A stretch of DNA of 64,000 nucleotides from Pseudomonas sp. HN11. Lineage in GTDB: Bacteria > Pseudomonadota > Gammaproteobacteria > Pseudomonadales > Pseudomonadaceae. This document shows positions 1-10,068 of this stretch, piece after piece. A program made the translations under genes and the position numbers. The notes under the pieces were generated by a model. It had not been told where the DNA came from and did no database searches. It saw nothing but the letters and a program-made list of their open reading frames with translations. Each line of letters begins with the position of its first letter. Within the stretch, counting starts at the first letter, position 1. The DNA lies in the NCBI RefSeq assembly GCF_021390155.1, contig NZ_CP089985.1, forward strand, positions 2,925,001 through 2,989,000. Reading direction: 5' to 3'.

Positions 1-1655
1 AGCGTGGTGGTCGATTTGAACGTGGTATCTCACAACATCCAACAGTTGATGACCGTGTCCACGTGGTAACTCACGCAGACTTGGCAGCCATCTACGGGGC
101 TGTCGATCCGCAAGACTACGTTCCGATAGGACACCTTGCTAGTGCAGAAGCAATTCCGGCTTTAGTGAATATCAATCGCCTGATAACTAGGCATAGTGCA
201 GTGGTGGGCACAACAGGGTCAGGCAAATCAACAACAGTCGCCGGGCTATTAAATGCGCTTTCAGACCCGTCGAGATATCCTGCTGCACGAATTTTAGTCT
301 TGGATATACATGGGGAATACGCGAAAGCGCTTTCAAATAGGTCTACCGTTTTTAGGGTCTCTGCTGATTCAGCACAAAATGAGACAGCGTTGAATATCCC
401 GTTTTGGGCATTGAGTTTTGATGAGCTAGTACCGTTCGCATTTGGGCGGTTAAATGATGCCCAAGCTTCTGCTGTAACAGACGCAATCGTCGAGCTGAAG
501 CGTGAAGCATTGTTGAATTATCCTCGTACTGGAGTAGAACTTGAGGATGTTACAGCCGACACTCCGGTCCCGTTCTGCATTCATAAATTATGGTTTGAAC
601 TTCATCGCCGTGAACACCACACGCTTATTCCAAGGCCGGGCGCGGCGGCAGGCGAGGTCGAGCATGCATACGTTCTAGACAATACTGGGCACCCGCAGGA
701 GTTGGGTGACGCGATGAGCGTGCGTCCGCCGCTCTACAGAACTGTTAAAACTACAGGGGCCGCTGATGAACGTGTCCAACTAGGCTCGGGAACAATTGGG
801 ATACGTGCCCAACTTGCTTCTTTAGCATCCAAGCTGCGTGATCCCAGATTGGCATTTTTGTTTCGGCCCGGTGATTGGGCTCCCGCACTAGATGGTCATG
901 TGGTCAAGGACGTCGATGAATTATTACGCGACTGGATCGGCTCTGATCGACCGGTTTCAATTCTTGACCTATCGGGAATTCCGTCGAACATTCTAAGTGA
1001 TCTGATTGGCGCAATGCTTAGGGTATTATATGACGCAATCTTTTGGGCTCGAAACTTACCGGAAGGTGGGCGAGAACGTCCACTATTGCTCGTGCTGGAA
1101 GAGGCCCATGCGTACCTATCACGCGAAAATGAAGGTTCTGCTTCAGCAGTTGTAAGGCGCATTGCAAAAGAGGGTCGAAAGTATGGCGTCGGTATGATGC
1201 TAGTTAGCCAGCGTCCAGCAGAGATCGATACGACTATTCTCTCTCAATGTGGAACGTTGTTCGCGCTCCGACTGGCGAATGATAGTGATCGTGGACATAT
1301 AGCCAGTGCCGCAGCGGATAACCTGAAAGGCTTGTTCGAGATGTTGCCCGTGCTACGTACGGGGGAAGCAATTGTGGTCGGTGAAGCTGTAAGCCTGCCA
1401 ATCCGAGCATTGATTACGCCGCCACCGATTGGGCAGAGACCCGACAGCGTCGACCCGAAGGTAGTAGTTAGGCAAGTTAATGATCAGGGCAGTCAGCTTT
1501 TTGAAGGGCCTGGAGGTTGGGCCCAAGAAGTGGGTGTATCTGATTACTCTATACTAGTGAAACAGTGGCGAAAACAGTCTTCTCGTTACGAACATGAGCC
1601 AGCAATTGTAGTGGCTCCCCAAGGGAATGAAGGAGTGGAACCTACAGATGATTGA
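1..1655 (+). CDS. HerA-family DNA-translocating ATPase (5' partial)
   Basis: The frame is open from base 3 to the stop at 1653-1655, so the true start lies before the window. The GTG at 63 is internal, because residues encoded by 3-62 already resemble the HAS-barrel N-terminal domain of HerA. Walker A (GTTGSGKST) is at 207-233, Walker B (LLLVLEEAH) at 1083-1109, and an SQRP motif follows near 1206. HerA proteins are hexameric ring ATPases that move DNA. In archaea they work with NurA in end resection. In bacterial islands they commonly form the second gene of anti-phage pairs with SIR2 or DUF4297 nucleases. The partner, if any, would be to the left, outside the window. The stop overlaps the next gene, which suggests translational coupling. 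The family is clear; a defence role is inference. Confidence 0.9.
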   Translation, partial: RGGRFERGISQHPTVDDRVHVVTHADLAAIYGAVDPQDYVPIGHLASAEAIPALVNINRLITRHSAVVGTTGSGKSTTVAGLLNALSDPSRYPAARILVLDIHGEYAKALSNRSTVFRVSADSAQNETALNIPFWALSFDELVPFAFGRLNDAQASAVTDAIVELKREALLNYPRTGVELEDVTADTPVPFCIHKLWFELHRREHHTLIPRPGAAAGEVEHAYVLDNTGHPQELGDAMSVRPPLYRTVKTTGAADERVQLGSGTIGIRAQLASLASKLRDPRLAFLFRPGDWAPALDGHVVKDVDELLRDWIGSDRPVSILDLSGIPSNILSDLIGAMLRVLYDAIFWARNLPEGGRERPLLLVLEEAHAYLSRENEGSASAVVRRIAKEGRKYGVGMMLVSQRPAEIDTTILSQCGTLFALRLANDSDRGHIASAAADNLKGLFEMLPVLRTGEAIVVGEAVSLPIRALITPPPIGQRPDSVDPKVVVRQVNDQGSQLFEGPGGWAQEVGVSDYSILVKQWRKQSSRYEHEPAIVVAPQGNEGVEPTDD

Positions 1656-1935: not shown

Positions 1936-2565
1936 TTAATGCGAGCTCGGTGTAACGCGTTTGATCCGGTATACGGTCGCAATCCCTACGTCCGCGAGTT
2001 TGGCGATGTCATCAGCCGACATTGTTGGATGTTTAGCCATCAATGACTGTACCTTTGCCCACTTCTCTACGTTCTTGCCTTTCCCTGTAGGCGTCCAGTT
2101 CGGGTCTGCAAGGCGTTTGTTTTCCAATCCTTGCTTGATCCGTTCAACACGTTTTTCTTGATCAAGACGCGCCATCGTCGCCATTAGGTCTAACAGCATA
2201 CTGTTGATGACTTCCATTATCTGGCCGGTAATTCCCTTGTCTTCAATTACCATGTGGCTTGTAGGCAGGTCTGCAATGACGAGACGTAGACCTTTTGCTT
2301 TGATCTTGGCTTTCAGTGTTTCCCAATCCGTTTGGGATAGGCGGCTTAAACGGTCAACACTTTCACAGACAATGCATTCACCGGATTGTGCTGCATCCAG
2401 CAATCGCATCAACTGTGGACGATCTAGCGTAGTACCACTGATGTGTTCGGAGTAGATGCCAGCAATGGTGAGGCCCTTCTCGCTTGCGAATGATTCAAGG
2501 CTTGCCTTGGCACGTAGTGCGTCTTGGTCTTTAGTGCTGGCTCTGAGATATAGGTGTGACTTCAA
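1936..2565 (-). CDS. Small serine recombinase (resolvase/invertase family)
   Basis: A 209-residue serine recombinase. The N-terminal catalytic domain (residues 1-140) has the nucleophile serine in LRASTKDQD (Ser10) and the conserved ESVDRLSR and GLRLVI segments. A C-terminal helix-turn-helix of the Hin type (residues 165-205) ends in GIATVYRIKRV. The length is normal for resolvases and invertases, which resolve cointegrates or invert short segments. It is transcribed leftwards towards the KTSC gene. The AT-rich upstream stretch with inverted repeats is a plausible binding (res-like) region and promoter. It is separate from the large serine recombinase near the island edge and could maintain or invert part of the element. 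Confidence 0.9.
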   Translation of the reverse strand: MKSHLYLRASTKDQDALRAKASLESFASEKGLTIAGIYSEHISGTTLDRPQLMRLLDAAQSGECIVCESVDRLSRLSQTDWETLKAKIKAKGLRLVIADLPTSHMVIEDKGITGQIMEVINSMLLDLMATMARLDQEKRVERIKQGLENKRLADPNWTPTGKGKNVEKWAKVQSLMAKHPTMSADDIAKLADVGIATVYRIKRVTPSSH

Positions 2566-3086
2566 TTTTGATTATCCTTTGGTCGTTGTTTTGATAGATA
2601 AATGATAATTCTATCATATAGCTATCTGCAATAGGTTTTTGGTAGTGTCAAGCGTGAGGTAATCGGACTACCAGATAAGTAGACCTATTTGATAGTCGGC
2701 CTTGGGTTATCGGAGTTCTCGTTGCTGCTGGTATTTTCATAACGGCTGGTATCGAGTCGAAATGGAATAATACGTAGGAAGCTATCTTTCAGTGGTCTTT
2801 CTATCTGCGTTCACCCTGAGCTGCACTGGATGACATACGGTGCCGATTGGGCTGCATATTTCTACTGGAAAGAGTCCGTCTGGCTCTTGGGGTGCCGCAT
2901 CGGTTGACGAGCCCTTGGGAATAAGGCCGATGAATATTCTGCAAAACCGATTCACAGGCCCTGTGCGAGCCATCAATTTGCAATCACTTCATCCAGTTGA
3001 TAGGTTTATGAAGGTATTTCGCTCTGGTCTGCCGCTTAGCCTGGTCGAAGTAAATGGAGTTGATAATCGACGTTACGAGGTAGCAA
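2566..3086. other. Intergenic region with inverted repeats upstream of the resolvase; otherwise no convincing gene
   Basis: Bases 2592-2630 are AT-rich with nested inverted repeats: atgata-attc-tatcat inside an outer gatag/ctatc pair. This suits binding sites of the neighbouring resolvase. An open frame at 2840-3112 (+, GTG start) could encode 90 residues and ends in a segment (RRYEVANGFH) faintly like the end of a ParB-type domain. It has no good ribosome binding site and overlaps the start of the next gene, so I treat it as a possible remnant only. Confidence 0.4.
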
Positions 3087-3938
3087 ATGGATTTCACAGT
3101 CATCGACGTTGAGACCGCAAACCCCAATCTTGCCAGCATCTGTCAGGTGGGAATTGCCGTATTTCGAGCAGGTCAATTGCACGAAACATGGAGTTCGTTT
3201 GTTAATCCGAACGATTACTTTCACCCGATGAACGTTTCTGTGCATGGAATTGACGAATCGATGGTCTCGTCAGCTCCATCTTGGTCCGACGTTTATGATC
3301 AGATTTTGCCTTTTGTGACGGGGCAAATCGTGGCTAGCCATATGCCGTTTGATCGCACAGCGACACTGCGAGCGTGTCAAAATGCGGACTTGCCCCATTT
3401 TGATTGTTCTTGGCTTGACACCGCGAAGGTTGCCCGCCGAGCATGGTCCGAGTTCTCCCGGTCGGGCTACGGATTGAAGAATCTTGCGTCCTTTTTTGAA
3501 ATTCCTTTCGAGCATCATGATGCCCTAGAAGATGCGCGTGCTGCGGGGGAGATATTGCTTCGTGCAATCGCTCATACCGGGTCCACGGCTTCGGAGTGGT
3601 GCTCGCTCGTCAACATGCCGCTGTCTGCACTGAATGCAGTAGAAGGGCTATCGGTCAATCAAGACGGTGTCTTAGCAGGGAACGTCGTAGTGTTTACTGG
3701 AGCACTGTCCATCCCGCGCCAAGACGCGTCTGCCATGGCCGCAGAAGGTGGTTGCGAGATCGGCCTGGGAGTTACGAAGCAAACCACGCTACTGGTAGTT
3801 GGTGATCAAGACATCACCCGATTGGCCGGGAAAAATAAGAGCTCAAAACACCTCAAAGCCGAACAACTAATTTCAAAGGGGCAAAAAATTCGCATCTTGG
3901 GTGAAAGCGACTTTCAGGCGTTACTGCGGCCATCGTGA
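3087..3938 (+). CDS. DnaQ-like 3'-5' exonuclease with C-terminal BRCT domain
   Basis: A 283-residue protein. The N-terminal half (residues 1-170) is a DEDDh exonuclease domain: FTVIDVET gives the first Asp/Glu pair, ASHMPFDRTAT the second Asp, and EHHDALEDAR the catalytic His and last Asp. The C-terminal 90 residues form a BRCT-like domain (GNVVVFTGALS, then VTKQTTLLVVGDQD and KHLKAEQL), as in bacterial DNA ligase and in epsilon-like exonuclease fusions. It should trim DNA or RNA 3' ends, with BRCT tethering it to DNA ends or a partner. ATG at 3087 begins directly at the exonuclease fold. It stands alone between the resolvase and the XRE gene. DNA repair for the element, or nuclease-based immunity, are both possible. 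Confidence 0.88.
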   Translation: MDFTVIDVETANPNLASICQVGIAVFRAGQLHETWSSFVNPNDYFHPMNVSVHGIDESMVSSAPSWSDVYDQILPFVTGQIVASHMPFDRTATLRACQNADLPHFDCSWLDTAKVARRAWSEFSRSGYGLKNLASFFEIPFEHHDALEDARAAGEILLRAIAHTGSTASEWCSLVNMPLSALNAVEGLSVNQDGVLAGNVVVFTGALSIPRQDASAMAAEGGCEIGLGVTKQTTLLVVGDQDITRLAGKNKSSKHLKAEQLISKGQKIRILGESDFQALLRPS

Positions 3939-3999
3939 TGGGGTAGTGATATTGATCGAGTTAGTAGTGCAAGCAGTCGATTGTGAGCAGCGATATGGA

Positions 4000-4233
4000 C
4001 TAAGGGTGCTCGTCAAGCATGTTTTCCAAATCGGATATCAATACAGAGGGGGAGCACTTCAAGGCGTTTGCTAGCTTAAACAGTATCGCAATCGTAGGGT
4101 AGTGAATCCCCCGTTCTATCAGACTGACGTAGTTACGCTGTATATCAGCATCATGTGCAAGCTGTTCCTGGGTCAGTCCAGCTTCCTTGCGTTTTTGCCG
4201 CAGTACCTTTCCGAAAGCTAAGCCGATATCCAC
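4000..4233 (-). CDS. XRE-family HTH repressor
   Basis: A 77-residue single-domain Cro/CI-type regulator. The HTH runs over residues 10-64: VLRQKRKEAGLTQEQLA for the first helices, NYVSLIERG for the recognition helix, and the usual YPTIAILFKLANAL. It has no extra ligand or protease domain. It is divergent from the envelope cassette starting at 4341, and the gap between them carries palindromic operators, so it most likely represses both directions. Confidence 0.93.
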   Translation of the reverse strand: MDIGLAFGKVLRQKRKEAGLTQEQLAHDADIQRNYVSLIERGIHYPTIAILFKLANALKCSPSVLISDLENMLDEHP

Positions 4234-4255
4234 GTTTGCAGCCCCATCTCAAAGA

Positions 4256-4333
4256 CGGGTCACTGTCGGTGATGGCTGTTCGTACGTCCTCACAGTATAC
4301 TGTGAATATTGAGTTCAAATTCACAGTAACTGA
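4256..4333. promoter_or_regulatory. Cluster of palindromic operators between XRE repressor and envelope cassette
   Basis: A perfect 16-bp palindrome, TCACAGTATACTGTGA, lies at 4290-4305. A second imperfect copy (TCACAGTAACTGAG) starts at 4321, and a looser tcac...gtga element lies near 4260-4272. The spacing is suited to dimer binding, and the sites sit upstream of both divergent genes. Assignment to the adjacent XRE protein is inferred from position. Confidence 0.7.
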
Positions 4334-4340
4334 GGTCGGT

Positions 4341-4565
4341 ATGAAGCTATACGCATCTATTTTCATCGCAGCAATCAGCATGCCCTTGGCAAGCCTGATC
4401 GGTATCTGTTCGCTGGAGTTTGGATACGTCTCCAGCATCCGGCAGGCCCTTGGCGTGGGGGTAGTCGTTGCGGCTGTGACGCTTATCCTTTCGGTCATCC
4501 TGTTCATTTGCGGTATCCCATCGACACTGCGGCGCCTACGTGTTCAGCGAAGCGCCAGCAACTGA
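4341..4565 (+). CDS. Small two-helix membrane protein
   Basis: A 74-residue hydrophobic protein with two predicted membrane helices (about residues 4-27 and 36-60) and a basic tail (TLRRLRVQR). ATG at 4341 is preceded by GAGG at 4331-4334. A longer frame upstream would cross the operator region and read back into the XRE gene, so I reject it. It is the first gene of a three-gene rightward cassette (4341, 4583, 4865) under the divergent XRE operators. No family was recognised. A tiny double-pass protein could be a membrane toxin, exclusion protein or channel partner, but nothing in the sequence decides this. Confidence 0.65.
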   Translation: MKLYASIFIAAISMPLASLIGICSLEFGYVSSIRQALGVGVVVAAVTLILSVILFICGIPSTLRRLRVQRSASN

Positions 4566-4582
4566 TTCAGAAAGGGGCCGTA

Positions 4583-4846
4583 ATGCGAAAAATATCAGCC
4601 AGTCATGAATCTACTGTGGTCAAAGTAAGATCGAAAAGCCTGTTGGCGGCAATCGCGCTGAATACATTGCTTCCAGGGGCTGGCTATTTGTACATGGAAC
4701 GTTGGGTCGCGGGTATTCTCGGTGGCGCGCTAGTTGTCGCAATCTTCATACGTAGCCCATGGGAGCACTTACTGCTGGTTTGGATGTTTGCTAATTTTAT
4801 CATGATGATTGATATGTGCTTGTTGAAAGCACGAAACAACTTCTAG
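4583..4846 (+). CDS. Small membrane protein, TM2-like
   Basis: An 87-residue protein with a charged N-terminus and two or three hydrophobic stretches. The segment ALNTLLPGAGYLYMERWVAG resembles TM2-family proteins, in which a PGxGxxYxG-type turn links helices. ATG at 4583 has AAAGGGG at 4571-4577 as ribosome binding site. It lies 17 bases after the previous gene and 18 before the next, so the three are surely one operon. Function unknown. Confidence 0.7.
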   Translation: MRKISASHESTVVKVRSKSLLAAIALNTLLPGAGYLYMERWVAGILGGALVVAIFIRSPWEHLLLVWMFANFIMMIDMCLLKARNNF

Positions 4847-4864
4847 CACTAAAAAGGTACTTTT

Positions 4865-5695
4865 ATGAGGTTTGCGTTGTTCATGTTTTTGTCAACTATG
4901 GCGTCTGTAACATATGCCGCCACAACTGATCCTACTGCATGGGGGCAATTCAATACGCGTATGCATGAAATGTTGGACACCACTGGGTGGCATTTTGATC
5001 AGGCGATGGATACGAAGCAAATTGCAAAGGAATATCAATCTAACCAAGCAAGAGCCCAGATTAAATTCAGTAAACCTGGTATATACCGTGGAAGGGTCAG
5101 TAAGGTCATGATGGATGACCAAGGGGCCTTCTTGGTTATTGATCAAGGGAAGAGTGCCGCCGCTACTGTGCATTTGGCTGGTTATCAGGCTTGGCCATGG
5201 AAAACGTCTGGAAGCAAATCAGAAATTTTAGGAATTCAACCTTTCATTGAATTTGCCGCGAATTTTGATGCGGGACAAGAGTTGTTTTTCCAATGTCGGC
5301 GCGTCGAATTTGGTCTGGGAATATACTTGAGAAACTGCTTGGTTTTTCCGCCTGTCGTCGCGGCAACAAAGTTTGCTCCTGAATTAATTAATGAAATAGA
5401 TATTGGCGCAGCTTTTGAGGATATGATCAAGGCAAGAGCCTCTGAAGGCTGGTCTAGGCCACCATCGTTACAGAGCGGGTTAGAGGTTGAATTGCAAATC
5501 GCGCTGAAAATGGACGGTGTGGTTGATTCGGTTGTTGTGACTAAGAGCAGTGGTGACACATTGTTTGACAAGTCTGCCGTAGCCGCATTGAAAAATATTG
5601 GTCGCTTGACAGAGATGCAAGAAATGAAACCATCTGACGTCAATCGTTATAGGTTATTCACTATGAAATTAAAGCCAGCTGATTTGACACTTTGA
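4865..5695 (+). CDS. Exported protein with OB-like middle and TolA/TonB-type C-terminal domain
   Basis: A 276-residue protein with a cleavable signal peptide (cleavage near VTYA-ATT, residues 16-19). Residues 55-155 read like a small beta-rich OB-type domain (GIYRGRVSKVM...FLVIDQG). Residues 190-272 match the TonB/TolA C-terminal fold: GLEVELQIALKMDGVVDSV, then SSGDTLFDKSAVAALKNIG. It lacks the N-terminal anchor and linker of true TonB or TolA, so it would be a free periplasmic protein presenting a TolA/TonB-like domain. Such a domain could interfere with TolA- or TonB-dependent import of phage or bacteriocins; that is inference. It is the last gene of the XRE-controlled cassette. Confidence 0.72.
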   Translation: MRFALFMFLSTMASVTYAATTDPTAWGQFNTRMHEMLDTTGWHFDQAMDTKQIAKEYQSNQARAQIKFSKPGIYRGRVSKVMMDDQGAFLVIDQGKSAAATVHLAGYQAWPWKTSGSKSEILGIQPFIEFAANFDAGQELFFQCRRVEFGLGIYLRNCLVFPPVVAATKFAPELINEIDIGAAFEDMIKARASEGWSRPPSLQSGLEVELQIALKMDGVVDSVVVTKSSGDTLFDKSAVAALKNIGRLTEMQEMKPSDVNRYRLFTMKLKPADLTL

Positions 5696-5782
5696 TTAAC
5701 TGTGCGCCTTGGTCTTGATGCGGCTTCTGGCGGCCTGTGGGCCTCTTTGGGTTGCTTTAGTTTCCTGTCGCTAGCTGTCCAG

Positions 5783-6436
5783 CTAGAGGCCGACAAAAGC
5801 TCCTAGATCGCCTTCCAGGGGGTTTTCTGTAAGCGTGTGTTGTTTGGCAAGGCGTAAGTTTGGTTTGCCATTCTTGCGCCATTGTTTCAGTAATGACGTG
5901 ACCTTTCTACTTCCACTCCACAGTTGGTGCCTATTTGGTTTCGATTTGATCTTGGCTAGATATGTCATCCACTTGAAAAAGCTGTCTAAGTCTTCCAGAC
6001 TTTGTAAGTGGTGGCCGTATGCGTCATGATCCGGACCGATTATGGAATAGTCCGCTAGTTTTCCTTCGTGTTTGAGTTTGGCATGTATATGTTGAAGGCT
6101 TGCTTTTTTATCTTTTTTGTCATTGAGAATGACAGCGTGATGATGATGTACCCCAGTTTCATCATTTTCAGTAACGGTAACCCTCAATGGTAAATAGTTG
6201 GATTTTTTCCTGTAGTAGTTGTTGATGTTGGCGCTGTATTCGGCTGGGGACATTTTGTCTGTGAATCGTGTTCTGACGTGATAGCCTCTGGGGTGTCGTA
6301 GCGTTTCTGTCGCACCATATACCAGTACGTAAAGTGCTTGAATTATGTTTTCAAATGATGGGTATCCAGCATTGCATTTGATTGGTACTCCCATGTAATT
6401 GTCTTGGATGTACCGTTGCTTCGGTGAAGTGGTCAT
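5783..6436 (-). CDS. YagK/YfjJ-family (inovirus Gp2-like) protein
   Basis: A 217-residue protein with features of the YagK/YfjJ C-terminal family: an N-terminal segment FENIIQALYVLVYGATETL, then LPLRVTVTENDETGVHHHHA with a His-rich strand, and a C-terminal YLAKIKSK plus basic tail. Relatives sit in filamentous phages (Gp2) and in phage satellites or cryptic prophages, and are linked to replication initiation. It is transcribed leftwards, separately from the envelope cassette, and is AT-rich compared with the chromosome. It marks this part of the island as phage or satellite derived. Confidence 0.7.
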   Translation of the reverse strand: MTTSPKQRYIQDNYMGVPIKCNAGYPSFENIIQALYVLVYGATETLRHPRGYHVRTRFTDKMSPAEYSANINNYYRKKSNYLPLRVTVTENDETGVHHHHAVILNDKKDKKASLQHIHAKLKHEGKLADYSIIGPDHDAYGHHLQSLEDLDSFFKWMTYLAKIKSKPNRHQLWSGSRKVTSLLKQWRKNGKPNLRLAKQHTLTENPLEGDLGAFVGL

Positions 6437-6610
6437 GTTTTCTAGCTTAGGCGTATGGCGTAGCTGATTCCTTTGATGGTTGTTGGTTTGACAATAGAGA
6501 ATTAAATATCCTGTGTTTCGATATCGCGCTGGGCCAAGCCCGCCGCTGGTTTTAGGCGAAATGTGTGTTTGTAAGTCATCAATTTTCTGATCGGGTGGTG
6601 CTCTGTGCGG

Positions 6611-8218
6611 TCAGTTGCTGATGGATGTATAAAAATCATACATCGCTTGTTCTTTGGGGGAGGTTTCAACTGGTGCTAACGTGTTAATGCCTTGTGAGCG
6701 TTGTATAGCAAGCATATTTTTGAAAAGCTCCAAGCGCTCTTTTGTTAATGTCCCTTCTCGGTTTGTTATGTGATGAATTTGGGCGGCAGTCGAAATTCGA
6801 TATGCTTGTTTTTTTCTGTCATATCCTTCGTACGTGCATTTGCTAAACTCGTTGCCCTTGGTGCTTGCCTCAATGCGACCATTGGTGTAGCACTTTATAT
6901 TGAACGCAGCGGATTGAAGTAAAGCATTTAGTCTCATCGGGTGGTCTGCAATCAGTTCGTATTGGTAATCCCATGCCATGTTGTATGTGGAGTTTTTTTC
7001 TGTGCTGTCATCTATAATGAAAATCTTATCGCGTTCCAGGTTTTTTCTTTCCTTTGTCAGTGCGGCAATTTGCACATCTATCTCTGGGACCTGCCCGTAC
7101 TTCATCAGGGATGTCACAAGGGTTTGTATCTTTTCACTGATATTGCGTAACTGCCCTTCAATGACGATAAGTTTTTTCCTGCTTGTAGAAAGCTCCAGGT
7201 TTTTCATGGCCGTTTCAACAGCCAGTGTTGCAGTGTCGTTGCAGATGTGTAGCAAAATAGGCACTGGAAAAGATTTGTTGTTCTGGCACCTTAAGTCGCC
7301 GTAAGCACAACGAGTTGTACAGCGCATAGTGAATGGGCTATGTTTGTTGATTTTTACCTGCATGTTTGCGCCGCATTCACCACATTTGATAAGCCCGGAT
7401 AGGAAGTGTGTGCGTGCTGCTGTTGCAGGCTTGTACTCGTCTGAAAATCGCTGCTGCACTTGGTAGAATAGTTCTTCTGAAACAATGGGAGGGTAGATTT
7501 TCCATTCCTTCCAGTACCCGATTGCTATTCTGTTGGTAAGCCAACGTCTAATTGTGCTTGGGTTGATTTTTGCAAACGTTATATGCATGCTAATTAACCG
7601 TTTCAGGATTCTTCTTTCCCCGATTCCGGCTAGTGCATCCTCAAAGGCTCCTTTCATCGCCAGGGCGATTTCATCTTTTATTATTCCATTTGAATCAAGC
7701 CAGATTGGTGTCCTACGTTTTGGGATGATGCCATTTGCGGCAAGCTTTTCACGTGCCCTGTAACTTTTCTTGATTCGTTCTGACAGTGAGGCGCTGTACA
7801 TATATGCCTGCTGTACCTTTCCGACTAAAGACCATATCTGCTCGGATTTTATGATTGGGCCATATGTACAGTTGTCTTGTAATGTTATTATTTGTACCTT
7901 TGCGCTGACGATCTGATTGATTAAGGAGATCATTTCCATTTCTTGCAATCTACCAATGCGGTCGATTGCTTCCACGAGTATTACATCACCTTCTTTTATT
8001 TCGCCTTGGTTTATGGCTTCCAGTAGTTGTCCGAAACCATGTTTTAGATGGTCACCTTTGGATGCTGATCGCCCTAGGTCTTCGAACTTTTTTGGGTATA
8101 ACTTGTAGCTTGGATTGTTTTCAATCCATTCGGCTATTAGTTCTTGTTGTCTAGCTAAACTAGTGCCTTTTCCTTGTTTTGTACTCGAAAAACGAGCATA
8201 ACCTACCGCATAGGGCAT
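6611..8218 (-). CDS. Large serine recombinase (site-specific integrase)
   Basis: A 535-residue large serine recombinase. The N-terminal resolvase domain starts YARFSSTKQGKG with the catalytic serine at about residue 11. A recombinase domain follows (about 190-275), then a zinc ribbon (IKCGECGANMQVK, with a second Cys set in RCTTRCAYGDLRC) and a coiled-coil region (370-420). These proteins integrate phages and islands unidirectionally between attP and attB. It lies 200 bases from the point where miaE is interrupted and reads away from it, the usual position of an integrase gene beside its attachment site. It is probably the enzyme that inserted this element. AT-rich codon use separates it from the flanking chromosome. 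Confidence 0.93.
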   Translation of the reverse strand: MPYAVGYARFSSTKQGKGTSLARQQELIAEWIENNPSYKLYPKKFEDLGRSASKGDHLKHGFGQLLEAINQGEIKEGDVILVEAIDRIGRLQEMEMISLINQIVSAKVQIITLQDNCTYGPIIKSEQIWSLVGKVQQAYMYSASLSERIKKSYRAREKLAANGIIPKRRTPIWLDSNGIIKDEIALAMKGAFEDALAGIGERRILKRLISMHITFAKINPSTIRRWLTNRIAIGYWKEWKIYPPIVSEELFYQVQQRFSDEYKPATAARTHFLSGLIKCGECGANMQVKINKHSPFTMRCTTRCAYGDLRCQNNKSFPVPILLHICNDTATLAVETAMKNLELSTSRKKLIVIEGQLRNISEKIQTLVTSLMKYGQVPEIDVQIAALTKERKNLERDKIFIIDDSTEKNSTYNMAWDYQYELIADHPMRLNALLQSAAFNIKCYTNGRIEASTKGNEFSKCTYEGYDRKKQAYRISTAAQIHHITNREGTLTKERLELFKNMLAIQRSQGINTLAPVETSPKEQAMYDFYTSISN

Positions 8219-8418
8219 TATTGACCTTCGTTATATTAATTAAGTTTGGGTGCCGCCGATGTTCTGGTGCTAGGTATGCTGCACTGGCGGGGCTTTTCGT
8301 TCAGATGAATAATTTATAACATGCGAATATCACAGGATAAACATTGGCTGAAAATATAAGGGGCTGCTTTTGTGTCGGGTGGCATGCACAGGTTCGTAGC
8401 GGTAATGCAGATATTAGC
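8219..8418. other. Integrase promoter region and island/chromosome junction (att)
   Basis: This 200-base stretch is AT-rich near the integrase start and holds no gene. MiaE coding sequence resumes at 8419, so the recombination crossover should lie just before it, near 8400-8420. The exact att core cannot be fixed without the other end of the element. Part of this stretch should also carry the integrase promoter. Confidence 0.65.
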
Positions 8419-8913
8419 GAATTCAAGGCTGCCAGCACGGCCCTGAGCCTGATTGCCAAGTACTACAGCCATGTCGACCTGATCAACATGATGTCGCGCC
8501 TGGTCCGCGAAGAGCTGGTGCACCACGAACAGGTCATGCGCCTGATGAAAAAGCGCAAAGTCGAGTTGCGCCAACTGAATGCCGGGCGTTACGCCTCGGG
8601 TTTGCGCAAAGTCGTGCGCACACACGAGCCCGTCAAACTGGTAGACACCCTGGTAGTTGGCGCGTTTATCGAAGCCCGCAGTTGTGAGCGTTTCGAAGCA
8701 CTGGTGCCGCATTTGGACGAAGAACTCGGCAAGTTCTACTTCGGTCTGCTGAAGAGCGAGGCGCGGCACTTTCAGGGTTACCTGAAGCTGGCCTATCAGT
8801 ACGGTGACGCCAAGGATGTTGCCCAGGTGATTGAGCGGGTAAGGGGCGCCGAGCAGGAACTGATCGAGTCACCCGATATCGAGTTCCGCTTTCACAGTGG
8901 CGTGCCAGCCTGA
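8419..8913 (+). pseudogene. miaE: miaE 3' fragment, tRNA-(ms2io6A)-hydroxylase, split by island
   Basis: The last 164 residues of MiaE, the di-iron ferritin-like enzyme that hydroxylates ms2i6A37 in tRNA. Homology begins at EFKAASTALSLIAKY and includes the iron-site segments REELVHHEQVM and IEARSCERFE and the normal C-terminus (FRFHSGVPA). About 39 N-terminal residues of the roughly 200-residue family are missing. The 25 codons before 8419 come from the element and do not resemble MiaE. A TTG at 8344 could in theory start a chimera, but it has no convincing ribosome binding site. The gene's 3' end overlaps the convergent MFS gene by 45 bases, as in an undisturbed chromosome. Confidence 0.88.
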
Positions 8914-10068
8914 GGCGACCGCCAGGCCAATCAGTGCAGTAATCCCGGCCAGCAACAGGATCACCGTCTGCGTGCCCAACGGGGCTGCCAGCAGCGCAAT
9001 CGCCAGGCCCGCCAAGGGCTGCGGCAGGTTATTGAGCAGGGTGATCACTCCCACGGTCTTGCCAAAATCCTGCACGGGAATCACCCGCTGACGGGTGCTG
9101 CGCAGGTAGACGTTGAACATCTTGTCGAAGCCGGTGACCAGTAGGAAGCCCACGGCATACAGCCAGATGCCGGGGCTGGCCGCCATGATCACGGCGCCCA
9201 GCGCAATCATCGAATACGACAACCCGCCCAGCACTTTCAGCGGCAGCCCGGCCCGCGCCAGGTAAAATAAAATCCCGATGGTCACCAGGGCGCCAGCCGC
9301 CTGCAGCAGGGCATAGGTGTCCTTATCCTGTGCAAATTGGCCGGTCACCATGGCCGCAGACGTGGCCAGCGTGACGCCAATGATCAGGTTCACGCCCACG
9401 GCCAGCGTGATGATCCGCTTCAGTTCCGGCAGGCTGCGGATATGCCCGAAGGCAATCTTCAGCGGTTGCAGCCAGATATCCCGGTGTTGCTCGAAGGTCT
9501 CCAGGCTGACGGTGCTGGAGCGTTGCCACACCCGCATTGCCAGGTCAGCCAATAAGAACAGCCCGGCCACCCCGAGTACGACCCAGTGCCAGGCCCACAC
9601 TTCCAGCATCAGCGCCGCCACCAAGGGCCCTAGCACCAGCCCGCTCTGGTCGGCAATCTGCGAATAGGAGAGCGTCTTGGCGTAGCTGTACTGTGGGAAC
9701 ACATGGGGCATCAGCACTTCCCGCGCCATGATGCCCTGGGTAGTCAGCACGCCGCAGAGCGCCGAGAGCAGCACGATCCAGACGATTGTGTCGAATACCC
9801 CGTACAAAACCACGGCCATCATGCAAGCCAACGCCCGGTACACCTGGCTGATATGCAGGATGCGCACCGGCGCGAACTTGTCGCACAATGCGCCGCATAC
9901 CGGGAACGCGAGATAACGCGGCAGCGACTCGATAAAGAACGCCAGCCCGGCCCAGGCTACGCTCTGAGTGGTCTGGAACACGATCAAGGGCACGATAAAC
10001 AGCAGAATCTGGTCGGCCAGCCGCGACAGAAACAATGAGACAAAGAACGCCAGATAATCCTTGCGCAT
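8869..10068 (-). CDS. MFS transporter
   Basis: A 399-residue major facilitator with 12 predicted helices. The first begins LAFFVSLFLSRLADQILLFI, and the A-motif-like loop is FPVCGALCDKFAPVR. It resembles drug or siderophore exporters of the MFS_3 type; no substrate can be assigned. ATG at 10068 is followed at once by a typical amphipathic start. The gene is convergent with miaE, whose 3' end it overlaps, and divergent from the response regulator gene at 10226. Confidence 0.85.
   Translation of the reverse strand: MRKDYLAFFVSLFLSRLADQILLFIVPLIVFQTTQSVAWAGLAFFIESLPRYLAFPVCGALCDKFAPVRILHISQVYRALACMMAVVLYGVFDTIVWIVLLSALCGVLTTQGIMAREVLMPHVFPQYSYAKTLSYSQIADQSGLVLGPLVAALMLEVWAWHWVVLGVAGLFLLADLAMRVWQRSSTVSLETFEQHRDIWLQPLKIAFGHIRSLPELKRIITLAVGVNLIIGVTLATSAAMVTGQFAQDKDTYALLQAAGALVTIGILFYLARAGLPLKVLGGLSYSMIALGAVIMAASPGIWLYAVGFLLVTGFDKMFNVYLRSTRQRVIPVQDFGKTVGVITLLNNLPQPLAGLAIALLAAPLGTQTVILLLAGITALIGLAVASGWHATVKAELDIG

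Follow-up and report, generated by a model that had tools for sequence, protein, structure and literature searches.

A small gene cassette at positions 4000–5695 of a 64,000-nucleotide window from Pseudomonas sp. HN11 (2,925,001–2,989,000 of its 6.27-Mb single-contig genome, here called the window) encodes a protein that ends in domain III of TolA (TolAIII), for which the name TolL ('TolA-like') is used. An XRE/Cro-C1 type repressor gene on the minus strand (4000..4233; 77 amino acids, GTG start; HTH_3, E 2.1e-16) is opposed by three close-set plus-strand genes, M1 (4341..4565), M2 (4583..4846) and tolL (4865..5695). Hydropathy peaks indicate that M1, the core partner of TolL, is a 74-amino-acid membrane protein with two transmembrane segments, and M2 is an accessory membrane protein of 87 amino acids with a weak match to DUF6677 (E 0.018). 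TolL is apparently exported and has an OB-like N-terminal domain at about residues 23–165, followed by TolAIII at about 178–276. The arrangement of two small membrane proteins and an exported protein, claimed in a preliminary description of this locus, was thereby confirmed.

The TolL protein

Sequence comparison and structure prediction both identify the C-terminus of TolL as TolAIII and not as a TonB domain. Over its last ~98 residues TolL is 60% identical to the TolA of its own genome, sharing both sequence and predicted fold with TolAIII of the Tol-Pal system, and the predicted structure finds its best match in TolAIII, with TolAIII chains outranking TonB chains. The preliminary description had left the choice between TolA and TonB open and named structure prediction as a check; the TolA half of its proposal stood, the TonB half did not, and the suggested blocking of siderophore-receptor import is not supported. 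Family models gave a mixed picture, as TolL passed TonB-family C-terminal models (TIGR01352, 30.6 bits against a cut-off of 27.1; PF13103, 36.4 against 22) and scored 40.9 bits with NCBIfam TIGR02794 (tolA_full), over the C-terminal part alone and below the curated cut-off of 59.45. The TolAIII domain of TolL is under purifying selection and its predicted fold is intact.

The remainder of the protein differs from TolA, since its start resembles a signal peptide and an OB-like domain follows, where TolA has its transmembrane helix and domain II. Hydropathy comparison found no peak of transmembrane strength in the window TolL, whereas its own genome's TolA shows one, and by the same measure no segment able to couple TolL to TolQR was seen, nor, in comparison with the TonB energy transducer, one of transmembrane strength for coupling to ExbBD. 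A regular expression for the motor box was uninformative, matching 0 of 28 TolA controls. The hydrophobic N-terminus suggests that TolL is apparently exported to the periplasm. The OB-like N-terminal domain has no significant Pfam match and, compared with exported tRNA_anti-like/OB-fold proteins (PF12869; 3f1z), differs in this respect and in its fusion to TolAIII. When TolL, M1 and M2 were compared with the PADLOC models, each matched 0 families at E 0.1.

Distribution and cassette variants

TolL is rare, occurring in at least 11 of the 398 Pseudomonas genomes surveyed for TolL, M1 and the palindrome described below, once as a fragment. In these proteins TolAIII is joined to three N-termini that have no detectable sequence similarity to one another. 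The third type (C), of 277 amino acids, lies in L103 (genome G106; 2512–9819), a locus also holding a 195-amino-acid protein and a 94-amino-acid membrane protein, and its C-terminus shares 84% identity with the nearest TolA. L050 (G345; 7609–7767) retains a type B TolL remnant, with 45 residues matched at 84%. No tol-pal genes were found among the scanned neighbours in the window (those of the other loci were judged by eye only), and the genome's own tolA is ~2 Mb away from the mobile island that carries tolL.

M1 was found in seven of the 398 genomes (in G036 as a partial match), all of which carry TolL. Among 11 related loci M1 was detected in seven, one of them partial, and M2 beyond the window in two (L051 and L002); the M2 slot of L047 and L048 is occupied by a different 95-amino-acid membrane protein. 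On this comparison of gene content the core of the cassette is the regulator, M1 and TolL, with M2 dispensable. L044 and L049 encode TolL without detectable M1. In L044 the place of M1 and M2 directly before TolL is taken by a 187-amino-acid tRNA_anti-like (OB) protein (8954–9517), whose start looks like that of an exported protein. Recurrence of the genes together elsewhere, which the preliminary description had named as a test, was borne out in other Pseudomonas loci.

Regulator and operator

A perfect 16-bp palindrome (TCACAGTATACTGTGA; 4290..4305) lies beside the XRE gene, occurs once in its own genome and was found in 10 of the surveyed genomes, with a reversed control giving 0. At all ten sites it stands beside a related XRE gene, the relatives being 55–99% identical to the window's own (G030, 99%; G106, 90%; G396 and G148, 82%; G356, 78%; G043, 64%; G305 and G290, 56%; G323, 55%). 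The palindrome is identical across the five TolL loci with a window-type XRE (the window, L051, L043, L046 and L047); L002, L044 and L045 have another XRE type (30–34% identical to that of the window) and share a different inverted repeat (GATATCTGATTTTCAGATATT). The palindrome is thus very probably the XRE operator, and the earlier suggestion that repressor and palindrome belong together is strongly supported.

Five of the ten palindrome sites are type A or B TolL cassettes. In G106 the genes for the 195- and 94-amino-acid proteins lie behind the operator, with the type C TolL nearby on the opposite strand. Four loci, L095 (G043), L096 (G323), L098 (G305) and L100 (G290), have the palindrome and a related XRE (55–64%) without TolL, and there the operator faces a 91-amino-acid lipoprotein-like or a 99-amino-acid exported-looking protein. 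As far as sequence can tell, the regulator-operator pair also fronts other envelope genes at these loci.

Mobile island and neighbouring genes

The TolL cassette is carried on a mobile element near defence genes. In the window the island spans ~10.6 kb and is bounded by two copies of a gene which we take to be miaE-like, with 70.7% DNA identity: the left copy (~-2240 to -1638, upstream of the window) was placed by this identity, and the right one (8344..8913, plus strand) has an altered 5' part. The two-copy layout recurs in L051. A large serine recombinase, SR535 (6611..8218, minus strand; Resolvase, Recombinase and Zn-ribbon domains), is the probable integrase of the island. Convergent with TolL lies R217 (5783..6436, minus strand), which has an HHHH stretch and a weak match to REP_ORF2-G2P (E 0.67) and is possibly Rep-like; proteins with YagK_YfjJ_C occupy its position in L043 and L044, and YagK/YfjJ-like proteins are likewise convergent with TolL in L043, L044 and L045. 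L103 follows the same island plan, with relatives of SR535 (62%) and R217 (51%) and adjoining miaE-like genes. Other TolL loci contain tyrosine integrases together with helicase or YagK/YfjJ genes.

The left part of the island holds a SIR2-HerA pair that reaches upstream of the window (~-1465 to -266); the HerA-like ATPase (63..1655, plus strand; PADLOC HerA, E 3.9e-136) has its full frame beginning before position 1. It is followed by a KTSC-domain protein (1627–1863; E 6.4e-20), the small serine recombinase SR209 (1936..2565, minus strand; Resolvase, E 4e-23), with 85–87% identical relatives in TolL loci L043, L044 and L045, and a DnaQ-like exonuclease with BRCT (3087..3938, plus strand; RNase_T, E 4.8e-15; BRCT, E 1.1e-4). 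This exonuclease is a PADLOC PDC-S48 candidate (E 1.2e-30) and has an 88% relative in L045. PADLOC was also run on 10 proteins from seven TolL loci, 'nearby' meaning within the fetched stretches, and matches were obtained in five: SIR2 (E 2e-133) and HerA in L051, which is near-identical to the window; PD-Lambda-2_B and ShosA in L002; RT_VI in L045 and L048; MTase_II and Vsr in L046. The single proteins scanned from L043 and L047 gave no match.

Possible function of TolL

Filamentous phages and several bacteriocins use TolAIII as an entry handle, binding it by beta-strand addition, according to extracts of two papers (PMC7391070, PMC4339652). The latter extract gives affinities for E. coli TolAIII of 1 uM (colicin N), 11.9 uM (G3p) and ~40 uM (TolB), so invaders could occupy free TolAIII ahead of TolB. 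In the available text of PMC10424213, pIII-N1 in the periplasm brings colicin A resistance and a 4-log fall in phage uptake, which implies that occupying the TolAIII-pIII contact protects. TolA also serves the Pf phage of P. aeruginosa (extract of PMC7047154). From these ligand-binding, affinity, protection and phage data we infer, tentatively and with slightly less than even confidence, that TolL is a soluble periplasmic TolAIII decoy that keeps filamentous phages or bacteriocins from entering through Tol. Such exclusion is in keeping with a domain specific to TolA, with the nearby defence genes and with the published biology of TolA.

The cassette would then be a regulated envelope-defence module on mobile islands rich in defence genes. 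XRE bound to the palindrome would hold M1, M2 and tolL low, as the conserved pairing of regulator and operator suggests, and relief from XRE would release TolL for export, as its hydrophobic N-terminus suggests. Free TolAIII, unlinked to the TolQR motor, is expected from homology and predicted fold to present the same beta-strand-addition surface as host TolA. Invaders that depend on Tol would bind the decoy and not motor-linked TolA, filamentous phages by their pIII-type adsorption proteins and bacteriocins by their translocation segments, and import would stall. The OB-like domain and inner-membrane M1 probably position the decoy, make it oligomerise or hold it in place, which is the weakest step.

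Several observations weigh against a decoy. Soluble TolAIII could harm the host through TolB titration, a decoy does not account for the OB-like domain or M1, and the further genes that this operator fronts offer no clue to function either. The edge that binds TolB and g3p does not rank with the best conserved windows of TolAIII. Of 120 relatives, 7 show a hydrophobic peak past residue 35, so an anchor may be present in some of them. No type A or B TolL was found in phage records, nor any of full length on plasmids, and a viral-contig scan with type A TolL gave no match, so there is no tie to a particular phage. A further proposal, more doubtful than the decoy itself, is that mobile defence islands repeatedly captured host TolAIII as a soluble, XRE-controlled decoy with exchangeable N-termini, which would amount to immunity through mimicry of a receptor and reverse the phage pIII blockade as in a mirror. 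The TolL/TolA tree suggests, though not firmly, that the domain was captured more than once; it has 95 columns, however, and its well-supported branches are compatible with a single origin. The TolAIII domains of TolL reach only 54–84% identity with their nearest TolA in the set (62% for the window).

The main rival, which we consider unlikely, turns the same binding on the host: free TolAIII would bind the TolB N-terminus and uncouple Tol-Pal, and the resulting tol-like state, with tolerance, release of vesicles or a weakened envelope, would act as exclusion or as an abortive response. In TolL the C-terminal stretch that TolB displaces is well conserved, with P, D and L retained in 94, 93 and 96 of 96 distinct sequences, as this would predict; a strictly conserved operator would suit a costly product, and abolishing the TolA-TolB contact leads to a full tol phenotype and prevents binding of colicin and phage protein (extract of PMC4339652). 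Yet only 28 of 70 TolA-invariant positions are retained in ≥90% of TolL, which speaks against this rival as well as against a decoy, and TolB-TolAIII binding is weak (40–250 uM; PMC7066135), so high TolL levels would be needed. Decoy and dominant-negative effects may also coexist.

Two other explanations are less probable still. M1 and M2 might be the active agents, for example as membrane-active exclusion peptides or an XRE-silenced toxin, with TolL as antidote, anchor or partner. The confinement of M1 to TolL genomes (7/7) and the similarity of XRE to antitoxin and control-protein regulators lend this some appeal, although the resemblance to antitoxins is only general; TolL without detectable M1 in two loci, the absence of M2 from nine of the 11 related loci and the lack of any toxin family match for M1, M2 or TolL in family scans make it improbable. 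Least probable of all is a helper role, in which TolL would extend the function of Tol/TolB or ease the entry of the vector of its own element (uptake gain). An intact predicted fold under purifying selection would be expected of a helper, but the window TolL has no TolQR-coupling segment, and both the defence-gene setting and the failure to find a phage link speak against it.

Returning to the decoy, few dedicated barriers are known in Pseudomonas against entry of filamentous phages or Tol-dependent bacteriocins. The superinfection-exclusion lipoproteins Llp of T5 and Cor of phi80 bind and inactivate the receptor. They are, like TolL, small exported proteins of mobile elements, theirs blocking receptor use while TolL instead resembles the receptor. 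Searches of open PMC papers for TolA mimicry or defence listed no TolA decoy. Tolerance through pIII/N1 involves the same periplasmic TolAIII-pIII contact (available text of PMC10424213) in reverse: there the phage ligand sequesters TolA, whereas with a decoy the ligand itself would be sequestered by the captured domain. Immunity by blocking entry is already known, and receptor capture would be the new element. If the decoy interpretation is true, bacterial immunity would include the use of a captured host entry-receptor domain as soluble bait, and Pseudomonas would have a defined system of resistance to filamentous phages and Tol-dependent bacteriocins. The conserved XRE-operator pair may serve as a 16-base tag for locating further envelope cassettes.
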